A DNA stretch of 23,969 bases from a virus. Numbering within the stretch: position 1 is the stretch's first letter; every line of letters starts with the position of its first letter. The DNA lies in IMG/VR virus record IMGVR_UViG_3300032223_001135, positions 1 through 23,969 of that record; one strand, 5' to 3'. The notes below the pieces were generated by a model. The model did not search any database. It was not told the origin of the DNA and worked only from the letters and a program-made list of their open reading frames with translations. The translations under genes were made by a program, and so were the position numbers. Of the stretch, positions 124 through 9,914 are shown in pieces.

Positions 124-603
124 ATGAAGGGTCGCCCGCCAACACCGAAGCACATCCTCGCGATGCGAGGATCGAAGCACGCCAAGAACCGCGAGGAACT
201 CGGCGCGGCCCCGGCTGCGCCGATCAAGCCGCCGGGGTGGCTGAAGCCTCGAGCGCAGGAGATTTTCTCCCGCGTTGTGGCGTGGCTCGACGGCATGGGC
301 ACCCTGGCCGAATCCGACGAGCACGTTATCACGAGGTACGCGACGACCTATGTGATGTGGGAGTATGCGACCCAGCAGCTCCAAGCGATCGACTCGGCCT
401 ACGTCGAGGTCTTGGCCCCCGACGGATCGATTCGATTCTCTCGTCCAGTGGCGATGGCAATGCAGGCAAAGGAATGCGGCGAGGCGCTTCGGCACCTCGA
501 GACCGTTCTCGGCCTCACCCCCGGCGACCGCACCCGACTCGGCTACGGAGCCGTGAAGGTCGTCGTCGATCCGATGGATGCTCTGCTCGCGAAGCGTGGT
601 TGA
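124..603 (+). CDS. terS: Terminase small subunit, P27 family
   Basis: This 159-residue protein is the likely DNA-recognition subunit of the packaging motor, which brings the large terminase to the packaging site. It starts with the typical P27-family opening (GRPPTPKHILAMRGS), then a basic stretch, a PPGWLKPRAQEIF segment and a helical middle around WLDGMGTLAESDEHVITRYA. The C-terminal part (LETVLGLTPGDRTRLGYG) matches the usual end of the family. Length is normal. The ribosome binding site before the ATG is weak (TTAGGC). The large terminase follows after one inserted gene, and terS-terL order is expected for HK97-like phages. The family assignment is from recognised sequence pattern; the DNA site it binds is unknown. 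Confidence 0.88.
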   Translation: MKGRPPTPKHILAMRGSKHAKNREELGAAPAAPIKPPGWLKPRAQEIFSRVVAWLDGMGTLAESDEHVITRYATTYVMWEYATQQLQAIDSAYVEVLAPDGSIRFSRPVAMAMQAKECGEALRHLETVLGLTPGDRTRLGYGAVKVVVDPMDALLAKRG

Positions 604-661
604 TTCACGCACATATCCCCGACTCGCAGTTTTGGCATGGAGCCATAACTCCGAGGGGAAT

Positions 662-1447
662 ATGCCAGCAAGGCGACAGATCAAGGCCGGCGACCGGCAC
701 GGCCGATGGACGGCGATCAAGGACGGCGACTATTCGTCTGGTCAGCAGATGGTCGATTGTAAATGCGACTGCGGGACTGAGCGAACTGTGTCTGCGGGGA
801 ACTTGAGGAGCCGAGAGTCGCCATCCTGCGGGTGCGCAAGGCGGGAGTCAATCGCTGCGAAGTGCAGGCAGCCAGTCTTGCAAGGAGAGCGATTCGGCCG
901 GCTGACGGCAGCGCGAGACGCCGAGTACGGCGAGACACCCCGCCCTACCGTCGCGTGCCTGTGCGACTGCGGCGAGGCGTGCGTCATCCATCAGCACTGC
1001 CTTCGTCGTGGAACCACGCAGTCCTGCGGCTGTCTGCACCGCGAGCGGTCGTCGCAGGCGGCTTCGCGAGACATTGGCAGCCGCGCGAACCTCAATCGGA
1101 TGTACGAAGGCGTTCGTGGAACGATCTGGATGCGGTCGTCGTGGGAGGTTGCCGTAGCTCACAGGCTTGATCGCGACGGACTGTCCTGGGAGTACGAGCC
1201 AGAATCGTTCCGCCTAGACGAGCACACGCGATACACGCCCGACTTCAAGGTCGACCTCGGCTCTCTTGGCGACTTGTGGGTTGAAGTGAAGGGCGAGTTC
1301 TTCGGCAGGTCGGAGGACAAGGTGGCCGCCTTCAGGGCAACAGGCAGGCCGCTCTATCTGGTCGGCAAAGACAACTTCAAGCAGTACGCAGGCATCAGCC
1401 CGTACATCGCGAATCGGCGATATCCGCCGAAGACGAGAGTCGCATGA
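662..1447 (+). CDS. Putative free-standing homing endonuclease: two CxCxCG zinc-finger repeats plus PD-(D/E)XK nuclease
   Basis: The 261-residue protein has two clear parts. Residues 16-58 and 81-124 are two copies of a cysteine module, each with CxCDCG followed about 18 residues later by SCGC (C33/C35/C37...C56/C58 and C99/C101/C103...C122/C124), presumably zinc-binding and DNA-contacting. Residues 155-215 look like a PD-(D/E)XK nuclease: E162 in SSWEVA, D194 in YTPDF, then E208 and K210 in WVEVKG. The same kind of finger accompanies HNH, AP2-type and other phage homing endonucleases. I chose the ATG at 662 because GAGGGG lies just upstream; the frame stays open back to 578 without a good start signal. 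It overlaps terL by ATGA. The domain reading is good. Homing is inferred from its place between the conserved terS and terL genes; a structural or repair nuclease remains possible. Confidence 0.72.
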   Translation: MPARRQIKAGDRHGRWTAIKDGDYSSGQQMVDCKCDCGTERTVSAGNLRSRESPSCGCARRESIAAKCRQPVLQGERFGRLTAARDAEYGETPRPTVACLCDCGEACVIHQHCLRRGTTQSCGCLHRERSSQAASRDIGSRANLNRMYEGVRGTIWMRSSWEVAVAHRLDRDGLSWEYEPESFRLDEHTRYTPDFKVDLGSLGDLWVEVKGEFFGRSEDKVAAFRATGRPLYLVGKDNFKQYAGISPYIANRRYPPKTRVA

Positions 1448-2962: not shown

Positions 2963-4606
2963 GTGGACAAGGTCGACGAGGAAGTCTCCGATCTGATCGA
3001 GCTTCGCGGCAATCTCTCTCGCATCTTCGAGGAGATTACGAATACCCGACGGACTGCGTCGGGCGTCACGGTATCGCCCGAGACTGCCCTGGAATGCACC
3101 GCGGTTCTCGCGTGCGTTCGTGTTCTGTCCGAGTCGATCGCCTCATTGCCTTTCAACGTCTACCGCAGGCTCCCCGGCGGCGGCAAGGAAATCGCCGAAG
3201 AGCAGCATCTGCACGAGGTGATCTGCTACCAGCCGAACTCGTGGATGACGGGCTTCGAGTTCAGGGAGCTTATGCAAAGCTGGCTCCTCCTCTGGGGCAA
3301 TGCTTTCGCCTACATCAAGGGCGGCCGGCAAGGCGGCGTGACCGAGCTGATTCCGTTGCATCCGTCGCGGATGGAGGTCAAGCGGCTCACGAACGGCAAG
3401 CTGCGGTATTACTACACCGAGCCGACAACGCCGATTCAGCCGCAGGTGAATGTGACCGAGTATCGCCAGGACGAGATTTTTCATCTTCGCTGGCTCTCGT
3501 CGGATGGGGTGACAGGATTTGTGCCAACAAACCTGTCCCGTGACGCGATCGGCCTCGCCAGAGCCACCGAGCTTCACTCGGGCAGCTTCTTCGGCAACGG
3601 AGCCCAGCCTGGGACGTACATCGAAACCGATCAGCCTCATAAGCCCGAAGTGCTCGCTCGCTTCAAGGAGCAGTGGAACGACGCTCACCAGGGGCCAGAA
3701 AAGGCATACAAGACGGTCGTCATGCCGTTCGGCTTTCACCGCAAGCAGGTGGAAATTCGCAACGATACCGCCCAGCTTATTGAGACAAGAAAGTACCAAG
3801 TCGAAGAGGTGGCGAGAGCGTATCGCGTGCCGCCGCATCTGCTCGGCGACTTGTCCAACGTCCGCTTCAGCACCGTCGAGCAGTCTGCCATCGACTTCGT
3901 CACCTTCAGCTTGATCCCGTGGTGCCGCCGCTGGGAAATGGCCTGCCGCCGCGACCTCGTCGTGGACGATAAGCAGTATTTTTGCCAGTTCGATGTGAAT
4001 GCCTTGATGGCCGGCGACTACGCGGCGCGGTCGCAATTCATCCGCGAGATGGCGAATCTCGGCGCGCTCGACGTTGACGAGATTCGCGCTCAGATCGGCT
4101 ACAACCCGTTGCCCGACGGTCAGGGGAAGAAGCGGTTCATTCAGGTCAATATGCAACTGCTCGATGCGTTCACGCTCGAGAACCCAACCGGCCAAAAGCC
4201 GCAGCCGGAGGCATCCCCTGCCCCGCCCGCCAGCGTCGATTCGCCCTCGGAGCCGCAGGCCGGCGACACAGCGGACACGACGGACGCTCGTCAGGTCGCC
4301 GGAGCCGAGGTGATCTTCAAGACGAATCTTCGCCGACTCGCCGCGGTCGAGGCCGACGGCGTGCTCGAGCGGAGGAACAAGCCCGAGAAGCTGGCCTCTT
4401 GGTTCGACCAGATGACTGCGAGGATGCGCGAAGAGCTTCGCGAGTCAGCAAAGGCCACTGGCCGCGACATAGATCAGTTTGTGGGAACGTGGATGAACCG
4501 CTCGCGAGAACTCCTGCTTGAGTGTCATCGCAGCGGCCAGAAGTACGAGACAGTCACCGAGGACTGGTGCGACAAGCACCTGACGACCGATGCCGCAGCC
4601 ACTTGA
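2963..4606 (+). CDS. Portal protein, HK97 family
   Basis: This 547-residue protein should form the dodecameric portal ring through which DNA enters and leaves the head. The first 120 residues carry the family's usual pattern (ECTAVLACVRVLSESIASLP, then a WLLLWGNAFAY segment). The core includes RVPPHLLGDLSN and the STVEQSAIDFVTFSLIPW helix, and the body ends near GYNPLPDGQGKK. Residues 410-547 are an extra tail: a Pro/Ala-rich linker followed by a helical, charged domain (SWFDQMTARMREEL). The start is GTG one base after the terL stop; the next in-frame Met is too far inside the conserved region. The 3' end overlaps the next gene by 17 bases. Confidence 0.93.
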   Translation: MDKVDEEVSDLIELRGNLSRIFEEITNTRRTASGVTVSPETALECTAVLACVRVLSESIASLPFNVYRRLPGGGKEIAEEQHLHEVICYQPNSWMTGFEFRELMQSWLLLWGNAFAYIKGGRQGGVTELIPLHPSRMEVKRLTNGKLRYYYTEPTTPIQPQVNVTEYRQDEIFHLRWLSSDGVTGFVPTNLSRDAIGLARATELHSGSFFGNGAQPGTYIETDQPHKPEVLARFKEQWNDAHQGPEKAYKTVVMPFGFHRKQVEIRNDTAQLIETRKYQVEEVARAYRVPPHLLGDLSNVRFSTVEQSAIDFVTFSLIPWCRRWEMACRRDLVVDDKQYFCQFDVNALMAGDYAARSQFIREMANLGALDVDEIRAQIGYNPLPDGQGKKRFIQVNMQLLDAFTLENPTGQKPQPEASPAPPASVDSPSEPQAGDTADTTDARQVAGAEVIFKTNLRRLAAVEADGVLERRNKPEKLASWFDQMTARMREELRESAKATGRDIDQFVGTWMNRSRELLLECHRSGQKYETVTEDWCDKHLTTDAAAT

Positions 4607-5063
4607 AGGCGTTGTCGACGCATTGCAGGCGTCCCTGGCCCTGCACTGGTCGCAGGCCGAGATGTACGACCTCCAGGCCGTCCACCTGACCCGCTGGGGC
4701 TACGGCAAGCTCGGCGAGACCTGGGCGTCCTACGCCGCCGAGGAGCGTGGGCACATCAAGAAGCTCTCCGAGCGACTCGAGTTCTTCGATGTCCAGCCGT
4801 CGCCGACTCACGACGAGCCGGAACTGCCCAGGCACGACTTCGAGGCGATCCTTGACTCCAACTACGAAGCCGACACGCAGGCCGCCGAGGTCGAGCGGGC
4901 TGGCTTCATGCAATGCATCTCCGTCGGAGACTCGGTATCGGCCAAGCTGTTTATGAAGCTTCGTCGTGGCAGCGAAGATTCGATGGCGAACATCGAAGCA
5001 ATTCGGAAGGTGATCGAGCAGATCGGGATCGACAACTACCTCGCGAATCAGGTGAGCGGATGA
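4590..5063 (+). CDS. Bacterioferritin-like four-helix protein, ferroxidase site apparently degenerate
   Basis: The 157-residue protein aligns by eye without net gaps to bacterioferritin over its whole length. Shared features are RWGYGKLGE (36-43 region), EERGH (51-55), a third helix around residues 84-105, and the bacterioferritin-like end IEQIGIDNYLANQ (142-154). Mapped on E. coli Bfr, the di-iron ligands become H19 (for E18), E52, H55, D95 (for E94), S128 (for E127) and S131 (for H130); the haem Met52 position is R53. Only two ligands are clearly kept. It may be an iron-binding relic, a structural four-helix protein or a head-assembly factor. It overlaps the portal gene upstream and the protease start (ATGA) downstream, so it is co-translated with head genes. 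Fold assignment is fairly firm; function is open. Confidence 0.75.
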   Translation: MPQPLEGVVDALQASLALHWSQAEMYDLQAVHLTRWGYGKLGETWASYAAEERGHIKKLSERLEFFDVQPSPTHDEPELPRHDFEAILDSNYEADTQAAEVERAGFMQCISVGDSVSAKLFMKLRRGSEDSMANIEAIRKVIEQIGIDNYLANQVSG

Positions 5064-7141
5064 GCAATGAAATTGAGCGTCGTACAACGGTTCAGGAAGC
5101 CACTGTCGAATATCGCGACATGGGCAACGGCGAGAAGAAGCCCGTGATTTCGGGCTACGCCGCCGTCTTCAACTCCGAGAGCCGCAACCTGGGCGGGTTC
5201 GTCGAGACGATTCACCCGAATGCGTTCGATGATGTGCTCGCCGAGCAGCCCGATGTCATCGGCGTGTTCAATCACGACCGCAATCTGCTCCTCGGCCGCA
5301 CCGGAAACGGGTCGATGAGGCTGATGAAAGACCCTTATGGTCTTCGTTACGAGATCATGCCGAACGAAAATACGTCCGTCGGTCGCGACGTTGTGCAATG
5401 GGTGAAGGATCGGACAGTCGTGGGCTCAAGTTTCGCCTTCGCAGTGCGCCGCGACGGCGGCGATTCGTGGTCTACGGACGGCCAGCGAGGCATCCGAAAG
5501 CGCGAAGTGCGTCAAATCGGCCTGCTCGAGGATGTCGGCCCCGTCGTGCGCCCAGCCTACGACTCTTCCAGCGTGGTTGTGAGCCGCCGAGCCATCGAAA
5601 TGGCCCTCGGTGAGTCGTTCCGGCCCGCCCAGACGATGGCGAATGCGTCGAAACGCGGCCTCAAGCTCGCGCAGAAGCACGAAAACGTCGATTCTCGCCT
5701 GCTTTGCATCGCCGAACGAGTCGCAAACCGCGAAATCGTCTCTGTTGAGGAGGTTTCGTACCTTGCCGGCGTCTACGAGCGGTGTCTTGCGGCGAAAGTG
5801 ACGGGCTGGTCGGGCTCGCCGGCCTGGATCGAGTGGCAACTGGCCGGCGGAGATGCTGGCGAGAAGTGGGTGGATCGGCGTGCTGCTTCCGCGCAGCCGG
5901 AAGCAGCCCCGTCGGTGGACTCTGCGGCCGAAATCCCCGCTGCTTCCGACGAAAGAATCGACTCGGGCATCAACCTAAAGCCGACGACCGGCATGGCGGC
6001 GGCTGCCGCAAGGGGGCTCGAGCTTCACGCTCAGGGAAGGGCCGGCGACGGCCTTGTGCCGCAGACTGTCGCGAACGCCAGGAAGATCGCGGCCCGCGAG
6101 AATCTCTCGCCAGCTCATGTCCGCAGGATGCGAGCGTGGTTCCGTAGGCATAAGGTGGACAAGCGTCCTGGCTGGTCGACGAAGGGCGCTGAGACCCCAG
6201 GTTACACAGCGTTCATGTTGTGGGGCGGGTCGGCGGCCATGCGGTGGTCTGAGGCCAAGGTTGCCCAGATGGATCGCGAAGGCGAAGGCGAGATGCGGGA
6301 CGCCTCGGGCTCGACCTCTCTGCCGATTGCCGACCGCGATCGGGCTTGGGACGCCACGGCGGCAGATGCCCGCGTCCGCGAGTGGGCCGGCGGCGACTCG
6401 ATCAACTGGAGCAAGTATGCCCGCGCGTTCTTCTACGTTGACCCCGACAAGTCGGAGGAGTTCGGCGGGTACAAGTTGGGGTTCGCCGACATCGTCGACA
6501 ACGAGTTGACGGCAGTACCTCGTGCGATCTTCGCCGTCGCGGCGATCCTGAATGGAGGCCGAGGCGGCGTCGATGTCCCCGAGGCCGACAAGATGGCGAT
6601 CGAGCGAAAGGTCAACTCGTACTACGCCAAGATGGCGAACAAGTTCGACGACGACTCGATCAAGTCTCCTTTGATGAAGGGCGAGAGCCGAAATGAAGGC
6701 GATGAGTCGATGGAAGGCGAAGAGGAGGAGTATCCCGGTACGCTATCTCCGGCATTCCTTGATCTCGCCGAATGCCAGGAAAACATCGTCGAAAACTACG
6801 GCGAGTGGTCGCAGGACACGGTTGACGGTGCCCACTACATGGGCGAGAGCCCGTTCTCAGGCCGCGGAATCATGTGTGCGAACTGCATCTTCTATCAAGG
6901 CGGCGGTGCGTGCGAGATCGTCAGCGGCGAAATCAATCCGAATGGTGTGTGCAAGTTCTGGATCATCCCCGAGGAACGTATGAGCGCAGAAGATAAGAAG
7001 CCGGAGCCCGCTCCGGTTGAGGATAAGCCGGCCGAGGACATGCGTGCGGAGCAGGAAGCGAACGACATCGCAGTGAAGCTGGCGTCACTGAAGGCGACAA
7101 TTCTTCGGACTCAGTTGCACGGCGCAGCGAAGGATCGCTAG
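5060..7141 (+). CDS. HK97-type prohead protease with long multi-domain C-terminal extension
   Basis: The protein has 693 residues, about three times the usual length of an HK97-type maturation protease. Residues 12-180 are the protease: ISGYAAVFN, candidate catalytic His72 (NHDR), candidate Ser124 (VGSSFAF), and the conserved LEDVGPVVRPAY strand. Residues about 199-275 and 318-404 are two versions of a phage-associated module ending in GW...P..(I/F)..LAGG/LWGG..(G/M).W. Residues 420-525 form another domain (LPIADRDRAWD, WAGGD, YKLGFADIVD, LTAVPRAIFA), then an acidic linker. Residues 600-636 hold C606, C609, C618 and C631 in a high-potential iron-sulfur-protein-like arrangement. The end is charged and helical. 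I chose the ATG at 5060, which overlaps the ferritin-like stop (ATGA), rather than the open frame from 4913. The protease call is firm; the roles of the appended domains are unknown. Confidence 0.88.
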   Translation: MSNEIERRTTVQEATVEYRDMGNGEKKPVISGYAAVFNSESRNLGGFVETIHPNAFDDVLAEQPDVIGVFNHDRNLLLGRTGNGSMRLMKDPYGLRYEIMPNENTSVGRDVVQWVKDRTVVGSSFAFAVRRDGGDSWSTDGQRGIRKREVRQIGLLEDVGPVVRPAYDSSSVVVSRRAIEMALGESFRPAQTMANASKRGLKLAQKHENVDSRLLCIAERVANREIVSVEEVSYLAGVYERCLAAKVTGWSGSPAWIEWQLAGGDAGEKWVDRRAASAQPEAAPSVDSAAEIPAASDERIDSGINLKPTTGMAAAAARGLELHAQGRAGDGLVPQTVANARKIAARENLSPAHVRRMRAWFRRHKVDKRPGWSTKGAETPGYTAFMLWGGSAAMRWSEAKVAQMDREGEGEMRDASGSTSLPIADRDRAWDATAADARVREWAGGDSINWSKYARAFFYVDPDKSEEFGGYKLGFADIVDNELTAVPRAIFAVAAILNGGRGGVDVPEADKMAIERKVNSYYAKMANKFDDDSIKSPLMKGESRNEGDESMEGEEEEYPGTLSPAFLDLAECQENIVENYGEWSQDTVDGAHYMGESPFSGRGIMCANCIFYQGGGACEIVSGEINPNGVCKFWIIPEERMSAEDKKPEPAPVEDKPAEDMRAEQEANDIAVKLASLKATILRTQLHGAAKDR

Positions 7142-7290
7142 GCTACATAGAGAGACATTGCTTCACGACGGATGTCGTGAGGGGCAGTGCGAGCGACTTG
7201 AGGATTCAAGCACGCGGCGCGCTAGCGGGAACACCCGCCGGCCGCCGCATTTCGCGATTGGCCGGCTCAAACCAAGGAGCAGGCCAAATC
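7142..7290. other. Intergenic leader of the capsid gene with two inverted repeats
   Basis: This 149-base gap is the largest between genes in the window. It holds a 7-bp hairpin with a GGAT loop (arms 7163-7169 and 7174-7180) and a GCCGGCC/GGCCGGC inverted repeat (7237-7243 and 7260-7266), the latter just before the AAGGAG at 7274-7279. No T run follows either stem. A role in mRNA stability, processing or translation of the abundant capsid message is inferred from position only. Confidence 0.45.
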
Positions 7291-8643
7291 ATGGCGTCGA
7301 ATCTCAAGCGTCTTCAGGAACGTGCAGCGGCTGTCGCCGCTCGGATGACCGAACTGTCCGGTGTCGAGGATCGCTCGGCCGAGCAGACCAAGGAACTCAT
7401 CTCGCTCGGCACCCAGGCCGACGACCTGAAGACCTCCCTCGAGTTCGAGGAGCGGATCGCTGCCAAGGAAGCCGAGCTGCGTGCGGTGGTCGAGAAGGCC
7501 GCCCCCGCCCCGGCCCCCGTGGCCGAAGTGGCCGCCAAGGTCGAGGACAAGAAGGTCGAGATTCGGTCGATCCAGCCCCATCACACGAGCCTGCGGGCGT
7601 TCAACGACGGCCCCGAGGCTGTCGAGAGTGCCTATCGCTGCGGCCGGTGGCTGCGGGCTCACATCTTCAAGAACGCCGAAGACCTCCGGTGGTGCAAGGA
7701 TCACGGCGTCGAGAACCGTGCTCTCGGTGAGAACAGCAACTCGGCCGGTGGCGCTCTCGTTCCCGAAGAGTTCGCGGCCCGCGTGATCCGGCTCGTCGAA
7801 AACTACGGCACCTTCGCGGCGAGCAACGTCGAGAAGGTGACGATGACCCGCGACACGATGATCATCCCGAAGCGTGTCACGGGCACCACGGCTTACTTCG
7901 TCGGCGAAGGCACCGCGGTGAGCGAGAGCGAGCCAACCTACTCGAACGTGCAGCTTATTGCCAAAAAATTGGCGTGCGGCACGAGGCTCTCGAGCGAGGT
8001 GGTGGAGGATGCTCTGGTGAGCATCGCTGACGCCGTTGCTGTTGAGTTCAGCACTTCGCTGGCTCTGAAGCAGGACATGTGCGGCTGGCTCGGTGACGGC
8101 ACTTCGGCCTACGGCGGAATCTACGGCGTGGTGCCGAAGGTCAACGACGGCACTCACACCGCTGGCGTTCTGACTGCCGGCACGGGCGCGACGGGTTTCG
8201 AGACCCTGACGGTGACCGACTTCATCAAGACCATCGGCAAGATGCCTCTCTATGCCCGTCAAGGGGCAGCTTGGTATATCTCGCCGGCCGGCTTCGCCGC
8301 GTCGATGGCTCGCCTCCGTTACGCGGCTGGCGGCAACACCGTCGAGCAGGTCGGCGGTGGCGTGAACGAGCAGTTCCTCGGCTATCCGGTGAACCTCGTG
8401 CACGTCATGGACGGCACGCTCGGCTCCGACCCAAGCAAGGTCAAGGTGCTCTTCGCGAACCTGGGCCTGTCCAGCATCTACGCCCGTCGCCGGGACTTCT
8501 CGGTGCGGATGTACGACCAAGTCTACGCCACGACCGACCAGCTCCTGCTCCAGGGCACGATGCGGTTCGATGTGGTTCACCACTCGCTGGGCGACAACAC
8601 GACCGCTGGCCCTGTGATTGCCCTCAAGACCGCGGCGTCGTGA
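7291..8643 (+). CDS. Major capsid protein, HK97 fold
   Basis: The 450-residue protein should form the icosahedral shell. Residues 1-145 are a scaffold-like delta domain: a predicted coiled coil (NLKRLQERAAAVAARMTEL, then Glu/Lys-rich helices) followed by an Ala/Pro linker (71-80). The capsid core begins near GGALVPEEF (153-161) and shows the usual pattern: ENYGTFAA, IIPKRVTG, TAYFVGEGTAV, KLACGTRLSSE, and a late GYPVNLV / RDFSVRMYDQ segment. The protease encoded just upstream is expected to remove the delta domain. The ATG at 7291 is preceded by AAGGAG at 7274-7279; the frame is open upstream to 7177 but that stretch does not look like family sequence. Confidence 0.95.
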   Translation: MASNLKRLQERAAAVAARMTELSGVEDRSAEQTKELISLGTQADDLKTSLEFEERIAAKEAELRAVVEKAAPAPAPVAEVAAKVEDKKVEIRSIQPHHTSLRAFNDGPEAVESAYRCGRWLRAHIFKNAEDLRWCKDHGVENRALGENSNSAGGALVPEEFAARVIRLVENYGTFAASNVEKVTMTRDTMIIPKRVTGTTAYFVGEGTAVSESEPTYSNVQLIAKKLACGTRLSSEVVEDALVSIADAVAVEFSTSLALKQDMCGWLGDGTSAYGGIYGVVPKVNDGTHTAGVLTAGTGATGFETLTVTDFIKTIGKMPLYARQGAAWYISPAGFAASMARLRYAAGGNTVEQVGGGVNEQFLGYPVNLVHVMDGTLGSDPSKVKVLFANLGLSSIYARRRDFSVRMYDQVYATTDQLLLQGTMRFDVVHHSLGDNTTAGPVIALKTAAS

Positions 8644-9185: not shown

Positions 9186-9914
9186 ATGCTGCTGAGAGTC
9201 GGAAACGTCGAAGCGGAAATCAAAGTCGCGGCGGTGATGAGCACCCCGCGACTTGGATTCACCGACAACTTCTTCTGCGTCTCGTCTGCCCTAGCCCCGC
9301 ATGGCATCAGTCCCGTTAAGGTGACGGGTGCCTTCTGGGGCCAGTGCCTTCAGCGGGCGATGGAACAGGTCATCGACGAAAACGATGTGATCCTGACCAT
9401 CGACTACGACACGGTCTTCAACGCGAAGACGGTCGAGGCGCTCCTGGCGTTGCTCATGCACTCTGGGTACGACGCCATCGCGCCGCTTCAGACCAAGCGA
9501 GAGGCGAATGCCGTGATGTTCGCCGTGTCCGGCACCGACGTTGAAGAGAAGACAACGGTTGACGGCTCGTTCTTCAAGAAGGTGGTTCAGCCGGTAGAGA
9601 CTGCCCACTTCGGCCTTACGTTCCTGCGAACCGCTGGCCTCAAGAAGATGAAGAAGCCCTGGTTCCTCGCCAAGGCGAATCCAGAGGGCGAGTGGACGGG
9701 CGGGCACGTTGACGAGGACATCGCCTTCTGGAAGTCGTGGGCGGCCTGTGGAAATACGCTGGGGATCGCCACGCATGTCAGCGTCGGCCACGCCGAACTG
9801 ATGGTGACATGGCCCTCAAGGAAGGCCGAGGGCGGCAAGGTGCAGCAGCACACGACTGAGTATTGGCTCAACGGCCAGAAGGCACCCGAGGACGCCTGGG
9901 GGCAAGTCCATTGA
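9186..9914 (+). CDS. Glycosyltransferase, GT-A fold (GT2-like)
   Basis: The 242-residue protein shows the pattern of a small nucleotide-sugar-dependent glycosyltransferase. It has an N-terminal beta strand (EIKVAAVMSTPRLGF), a helix before the DxD motif (ENDVILTIDYD, D73-Y-D75), a later acidic motif typical of the catalytic region (HVDEDIAFW, residues 175-182) and a possible metal-binding His202 (VGHAEL). There is no membrane segment, so it should act in the cytoplasm. AAGGAG lies 6 bases before the ATG. It lies between the probable decoration gene and the connector genes, which suggests that it modifies virion proteins, although DNA or host-surface glycans are also possible. Donor and acceptor cannot be read from the sequence. 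Confidence 0.8.
   Translation: MLLRVGNVEAEIKVAAVMSTPRLGFTDNFFCVSSALAPHGISPVKVTGAFWGQCLQRAMEQVIDENDVILTIDYDTVFNAKTVEALLALLMHSGYDAIAPLQTKREANAVMFAVSGTDVEEKTTVDGSFFKKVVQPVETAHFGLTFLRTAGLKKMKKPWFLAKANPEGEWTGGHVDEDIAFWKSWAACGNTLGIATHVSVGHAELMVTWPSRKAEGGKVQQHTTEYWLNGQKAPEDAWGQVH

Follow-up and report, generated by a model that had tools for sequence, protein, structure and literature searches.

The locus examined here raises the question of why a phage should read a gene for a ferritin-like protein together with its head genes, what has become of the iron site of this protein, and whether the protein belongs to the phage particle. The window, that is, the whole stretch of 23,969 nucleotides of virus DNA that was analysed (IMG/VR record IMGVR_UViG_3300032223_001135), encodes the small and large terminase subunits, a portal protein, a prohead protease and a major capsid protein of the HK97 type. 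The large terminase subunit has its best match, at 42%, in gut Clostridia phages, and we find no close cultured relative; the carriers of the gene family are uncultured phages.

A bacterioferritin-family gene between portal and protease

The original prediction placed an open reading frame for a bacterioferritin (Bfr)-like protein between portal and protease and described it as co-translated with head genes. The reading frame is real, and its ends are interlocked with both neighbors:

2963..4606, + strand: portal protein gene, upstream neighbor (PF04860, E = 3.9e-94)
4590..4606, + strand: 17-nt overlap between the 3' end of the portal gene and the 5' end of the Bfr-fold gene
4590..5063, + strand: Bfr-fold gene, 157 aa, with altered di-iron and haem sites (allele I; ATG at 4590, TGA at 5061-5063)
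4644..4646, + strand: codon for H19 (position of Bfr E18)
4743..4754, + strand: codons for E52, R53 (position of the haem ligand Met52), G54 and H55
4872..4874, + strand: codon for D95 (position of Bfr E94)
4971..4982, + strand: codons for S128 (position of E127), E129 (cage hot spot E128), D130 and S131 (position of H130)
5060..5063, + strand: ATGA overlap of the Bfr-fold stop and the protease start (protease ATG at 5060-5062)
5060..7141, + strand: prohead protease gene of the S78 family, downstream neighbor (PF04586, E = 7.6e-36)
7177..8643, + strand: major capsid protein gene, HK97 type (phrog_10, E = 1e-40)

The protease gene most likely extends from 5060 to 7141 and not from 4913 to 7141, because its start at 5060 forms the ATGA overlap with the Bfr-fold stop and homologous proteases share this start point. 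The two overlaps leave no intergenic space for a promoter or terminator of the Bfr-fold gene's own, and support its coupling in translation to the head genes.

Several lines of evidence agree on the fold. The protein passes the gathering threshold of the Pfam Ferritin family (PF00210, E = 6.9e-11; 42.7 bits against 24.5). Its best NCBIfam match, as in all 35 members of the family that were scanned, is the bfr equivalog TIGR00754, at 35.3 bits and thus far under the cut-off of 125.55 bits. A phmmer search of the PDB sequences retrieved Bfr chains in gap-free alignments (E = 4e-10), with the Bfr of Blastochloris viridis on top. AlphaFold2, given an alignment with 35 related rows, predicted the monomer with a pLDDT of 95 and a pTM of 0.88 as a four-helix bundle followed by a short fifth helix (helices 8-35, 39-65, 84-111, 115-145 and 147-152). 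The model superimposes on Bfr structures with Z scores of 23-24 and an rmsd of 1.0-1.4 A over 154-155 residues (Z 24.4 and 1.0 A over 154 residues for P. aeruginosa BfrB), and the top Foldseek match is 9iig, a subunit of a mixed Bfr cage (TM 0.94). All of the top structural matches listed are Bfr or FtnA, and the monomer model contains no BC helix of the Dps type. The model of the sister allele, which was built from phage proteins only, has identical helices (pLDDT 95.4). Membership in the Bfr family is, in our judgment, practically certain.

The alignment without gaps that the original prediction had made by eye is confirmed as well: residues 2 to 156 of the model correspond to residues 1 to 155 of the Bfr chains throughout. 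Because this offset is constant, no shifted register restores the missing ligands; we looked for one that would bring back all six, and none recovers E127 or H130, in keeping with the gap-free phmmer alignments. In length, gapless alignment and fold the protein resembles the Bfrs of E. coli (1bcf), P. aeruginosa (BfrB, 6nlj) and B. viridis (4am2), and it retains the positions Y25, W35, R61, E128, E135 and N148. It differs by the replacements E18H, E127S, H130S/A and M52R, by its equivalog score below the cut-off and by its location in a head operon. PHROGs contains no family for it, and PADLOC reports no match to a defence or anti-defence family.

A second, independent Bfr occurs in the head region of an unrelated phage lineage (L067:7983-8456; also in L068, L069 and L070). 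This is a true six-ligand Bfr with the haem Met, encoded about 2.7 kb downstream of the gene for a capsid protein of the SU10 type (L067:4220-5260). A glycosyltransferase-like reading frame in the window (9186-9914; PF13632, E = 2.6e-4, below the cut-off) lies between capsid and head-tail connector genes and is conserved in relatives; L067 has one beside its bfr too.

Metal, haem and cage-contact residues

We surveyed the ligand positions in 43 distinct family members in one alignment that included the Bfrs of E. coli, phage L067 and record MT835709. The position of E18 holds H19 in 43 of 43 members, while E52 and H55 (Bfr E51 and H54) are kept in all of them. S128 stands at the position of E127 (42 of 42), and the position of H130 is occupied by S131 in 29 members and by A131 in 13. 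At the position of E94 the change to Asp is allele-specific: D95 is found in 20 of the 43 members, and the sister allele retains Glu (E95 in 23). The haem ligand Met52, which in Bfr lies at the two-fold interface, is replaced by R53 without exception. In the same alignment all six ligands and the haem Met are present in the Bfrs of E. coli and L067; the E. coli sequence fits the PDB match ranges, and the L067 sequence, derived by the search tools, displays the same pattern. The Bfr of MT835709 keeps five of the six ligands (Asp at H54) and the haem Met. This record (MT835709.1, L023), labelled "Bacteriophage sp." and derived from human faeces, was the only record from a phage collection that we found as a possible carrier. 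Judged by its reading frames it resembles a piece of bacterial chromosome, actinobacterium-like and with an ordinary bfr, and we rejected it as a phage carrier.

The ligand assignments made from the single sequence hold up across the family, as does the replacement of the haem Met, with the qualification that D95 is a property of allele I. The site had been called partly erased. Four of the six ligands (three in the E95 allele) and the haem Met are indeed lost, yet this wording is too weak, because the replacements do not vary and strong purifying selection acts on the gene. The ratio dN/dS within alleles, obtained from codon comparisons, is 0.02-0.21 and near that of the portal gene. The fixed replacements and these low ratios show a metal site that was remodelled under selection and is not decaying. 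The family has lost E127 and H130, on which the second iron and the bridge depend; therefore a normal di-iron ferroxidase cycle is not expected. The two remaining histidines (H19 and H55) and one or two carboxylates (E52 and D/E95) could hold one metal ion, and the invariant E24 together with R53 would occupy the former haem pocket.

The contacts needed for the cage give a different picture from the metal site. No member of the family alignment varies at R62, E129 or E136, the counterparts of the hot spots R61, E128 and E135. In the Bfrs of E. coli and R. capsulatus, changes of R61, of E128, or of E128 and E135 yield dimers and not cages (reviewed in PMC3179174). Other positions that matter for assembly in E. 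coli (R30, Y114, N34 and D132) are changed in the phage family; however, none of the four is conserved in the true Bfr of L067 either. For these two reasons we consider cage formation likely. The protein probably still builds a dimer of the Bfr type and probably a 24-mer, either alone or mixed with the Bfr of the host.

Optional presence and exchange of alleles

About 59 further IMG/VR records contain the gene, always beside portal and/or protease, and on every contig of sufficient length it lies between the two. It is absent from 20 relatives, namely L106, L107, L108 and 17 more distant ones; the relatives are represented by metagenome contigs, of which several are fragments, and absence from elsewhere in the genome rests partly on these. 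The protease ATG comes 2 nt after the portal stop in L107 and L108. L033, in which the gene is present, shares their portal tail, which is then followed by the ATG of the Bfr-fold gene; presence and absence thus differ exactly from ATG to ATG. In L106 (one record) the C-terminus of the portal protein reads STDQIGLDNYLVNKVQE; these are the final residues of the Bfr-fold protein, joined to the portal in frame (L106:6560-6670), and the fusion keeps the overlap with the protease start. From its sequence, this fusion is the scar of an in-frame deletion. The head proteins of L106 are 85% (portal), 85% (protease) and 89% (capsid) identical to those of the window; across the close relatives without the gene the values are 84-85%, 73-85% and 80-89%. 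Presence or absence at one site among near relatives is one mark of accessory genes of the "moron" type, which the Bfr-fold gene resembles solely in this optional presence, as it has no room for a promoter or terminator of its own. It behaves as an accessory cassette that is read with the late head genes via start-stop overlap.

Thirteen of the records without the gene were searched in full, and none contains a ferritin at another site; each of 10 family-bearing records searched in the same way has a single ferritin-type gene and no second subunit. No partner ferredoxin of the Bfd type was present in the records searched. One scan of bacterial genome contigs for prophage copies returned only an ordinary Chloroflexi bfr, situated beside genes for a carbamoyltransferase and an amidohydrolase.

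The family falls into two alleles that are 49-59% identical and sit on nearly identical backbones. The window and L037 share 95% identity in the portal and 92% in the capsid protein but 56% in the Bfr-fold protein, and along the stretch from portal through Bfr-fold gene to protease core the drop in DNA identity is confined to the Bfr-fold gene. L033 and L063 show the same pattern. Between alleles, dS in the Bfr-fold gene is 1.2-1.3, compared to 0.33-0.54 in the portal genes of the same pairs. Hence the two alleles predate the backbones on which they are now found and were moved by recombination. The Bfr tree unites allele I in a single supported clade, whereas on a portal tree of 60 rows the allele label switches at least 10 times and presence changes to absence, or the reverse, at least 4 times; these counts are approximate, since both trees are quick ones with a few long branches.

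Another reading frame of optional occurrence lies between the terminase genes of the window (578-1447, 289 aa). Among the relatives only some have it (L033, L040, L056 and L063); it has a weak Pfam match to Phage_endo_I below the cut-off, and is possibly a mobile endonuclease gene.

The role of the protein

The original prediction suggested that the protein may have been recruited for structure or assembly. As a required scaffold or assembly factor derived from a ferritin it would account for a site among head genes and for purifying selection; however, the exact absence in L107 and L108, the scar in L106, the 17 further relatives without the gene and the lack of any ferritin in the records without it that were searched whole make this reading very improbable. 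Because close relatives, with head proteins 73-89% identical, do without it, and divergent alleles are swapped on nearly identical head modules, the recruitment proposal is not sustained in this form. A gene that heads can do without in nature, and that is both exchanged and strongly selected, is more readily explained as an accessory factor than as an assembly protein, and we regard it as probable that it is an accessory gene not needed for heads.

An optional component of the virion, be it a decoration, a part of the portal vertex or an internal cargo, which is injected or stabilizes the head as non-essential accessory capsid proteins do in other phages, is a different matter. The fixed site between portal and protease and the start-stop coupling on both sides are compatible with it, the unrelated phage L067 also has its bfr in the head region, and the invariable link to head genes might indicate a role in the virion. 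Some viral models in BFVD named prohead protease match ferritin-like structures weakly, and encapsulins are HK97-fold shells able to hold ferritin-like cargo (PMC8346489, PMC9321382). The likeness to the encapsulin cargo proteins EncB and EncC is one of ferritin fold and HK97-fold shell, but the window family lacks a targeting tail, and nothing indicates that it is packaged. Nearly all of the proteins are 154-157 aa long and end like ordinary Bfr, at the C-terminus as originally noted, with no added targeting peptide at either end. No encapsulin-type cargo-loading peptide was found, and two members reach 162 aa with a short tail. The portal, protease and capsid proteins of relatives that lack the gene are 73-89% identical to those of the window, and the alleles are swapped without a matching change in the head proteins. 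We consider a virion component unlikely, although less so than the assembly factor. Finding the protein in a virion preparation could be misleading, as Bfr cages may co-purify with virions; the host's Bfr was found in a preparation of phage AXL1 (PMC9206674).

Ferritin-type genes have been found in viruses before (PMC10904782, PMC8008677). The bfr of a predicted Bathyarchaeia virus was described as likely functional and of archaeal origin (PMC10904782), and the Dps and Mn-catalase genes known from Gratiaviridae and Lactobacillus phages are thought to act on iron and oxidants (PMC8008677). The Bathyarchaeia virus and phages L067 to L070 carry a Bfr gene, as does the window, but in L067 to L070 all six ligands and the haem Met are kept, unlike in the window family. 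The phage Dps and Mn-catalase proteins are of the same superfamily and a different subfamily, and neither a lost active site nor a cassette between portal and protease has been described for them. In the open-access literature that was searched, we found no description of a ligand-altered Bfr family at the portal-protease junction. By analogy with these virus-borne genes, and with E51, H54, D/E94 and Y25 kept within the Bfr fold, the protein might be a working Bfr for iron storage or detoxification with an unusual but active di-iron site, comparable to the Dps and Mn-catalase of gut phages. This is improbable: none of the 43 distinct members retains E18, E127, H130 or the haem Met52, no shift of register brings these residues back, and in Magnetospirillum Bfr1 the changes E18Q/H54A/H131M nearly abolish oxidation (PMC6529640).

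With its cage contacts retained and catalytic ligands gone, the phage protein resembles the non-catalytic partner in mixed Bfr cages. A precedent is the Bfr2 of Magnetospirillum gryphiswaldense, a ferroxidase-poor subunit that forms cages with low oxidation and works in a mixed cage (PMC6529640). It shares with the phage protein the Bfr fold and the replacement of several di-iron ligands; however, Bfr2 binds haem and its gene adjoins that of the partner subunit, and the phage protein has neither feature. Ferroxidase-poor subunits of mixed cages have also been proposed for Synechocystis, and SoBfr12 of Shewanella is a mixed cage of solved structure. As we found no partner gene in the phage records searched, the partner in a mixed cage would be the host's, and host Bfr in this capacity is hypothetical.

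The explanation that we prefer is an accessory, horizontally exchanged subunit of the Bfr family, read with the late head genes through start-stop overlap. Deficient in ferroxidase activity and haem, it would form a cage alone or with host Bfr. The site made up of H19, E52, H55 and D/E95 could bind one metal ion, and the protein may buffer metal in the infected cell; alternatively, the phage subunit may dilute the ferroxidase and haem subunits of the host and so shift the levels of free iron or oxidants in late growth. Taken as a whole, an accessory cage-type subunit with altered metal chemistry and a swappable gene seems to us reasonably probable. Its action on iron or oxidants through a pure or mixed cage is a tentative proposal, more doubtful than the accessory status itself. 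Rather speculative is the extension that the phages employ as a host-facing tool a Bfr subunit that is ferroxidase-dead and haem-less; it would enter the host's Bfr cages late in infection and alter the storage or release of iron, its alleles being swapped to match different host Bfrs or host responses.

If the preferred reading is right, phages trade as a cassette a Bfr gene that is linked in translation to capsid genes and whose product had its iron chemistry rebuilt while the key cage contacts were retained. This would amount to a new phage route to cellular iron or oxidants, or to a new optional component of the capsid. With allele I, allele II, exact absence and deletion scar as a natural series, existing phages can be compared to test the question.

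The downstream neighbor has a feature of its own. The prohead protease (5060-7141 in the window) has a long C-terminal part past the S78 peptidase domain, and its DNA identity to relatives drops sharply after about position 5850.
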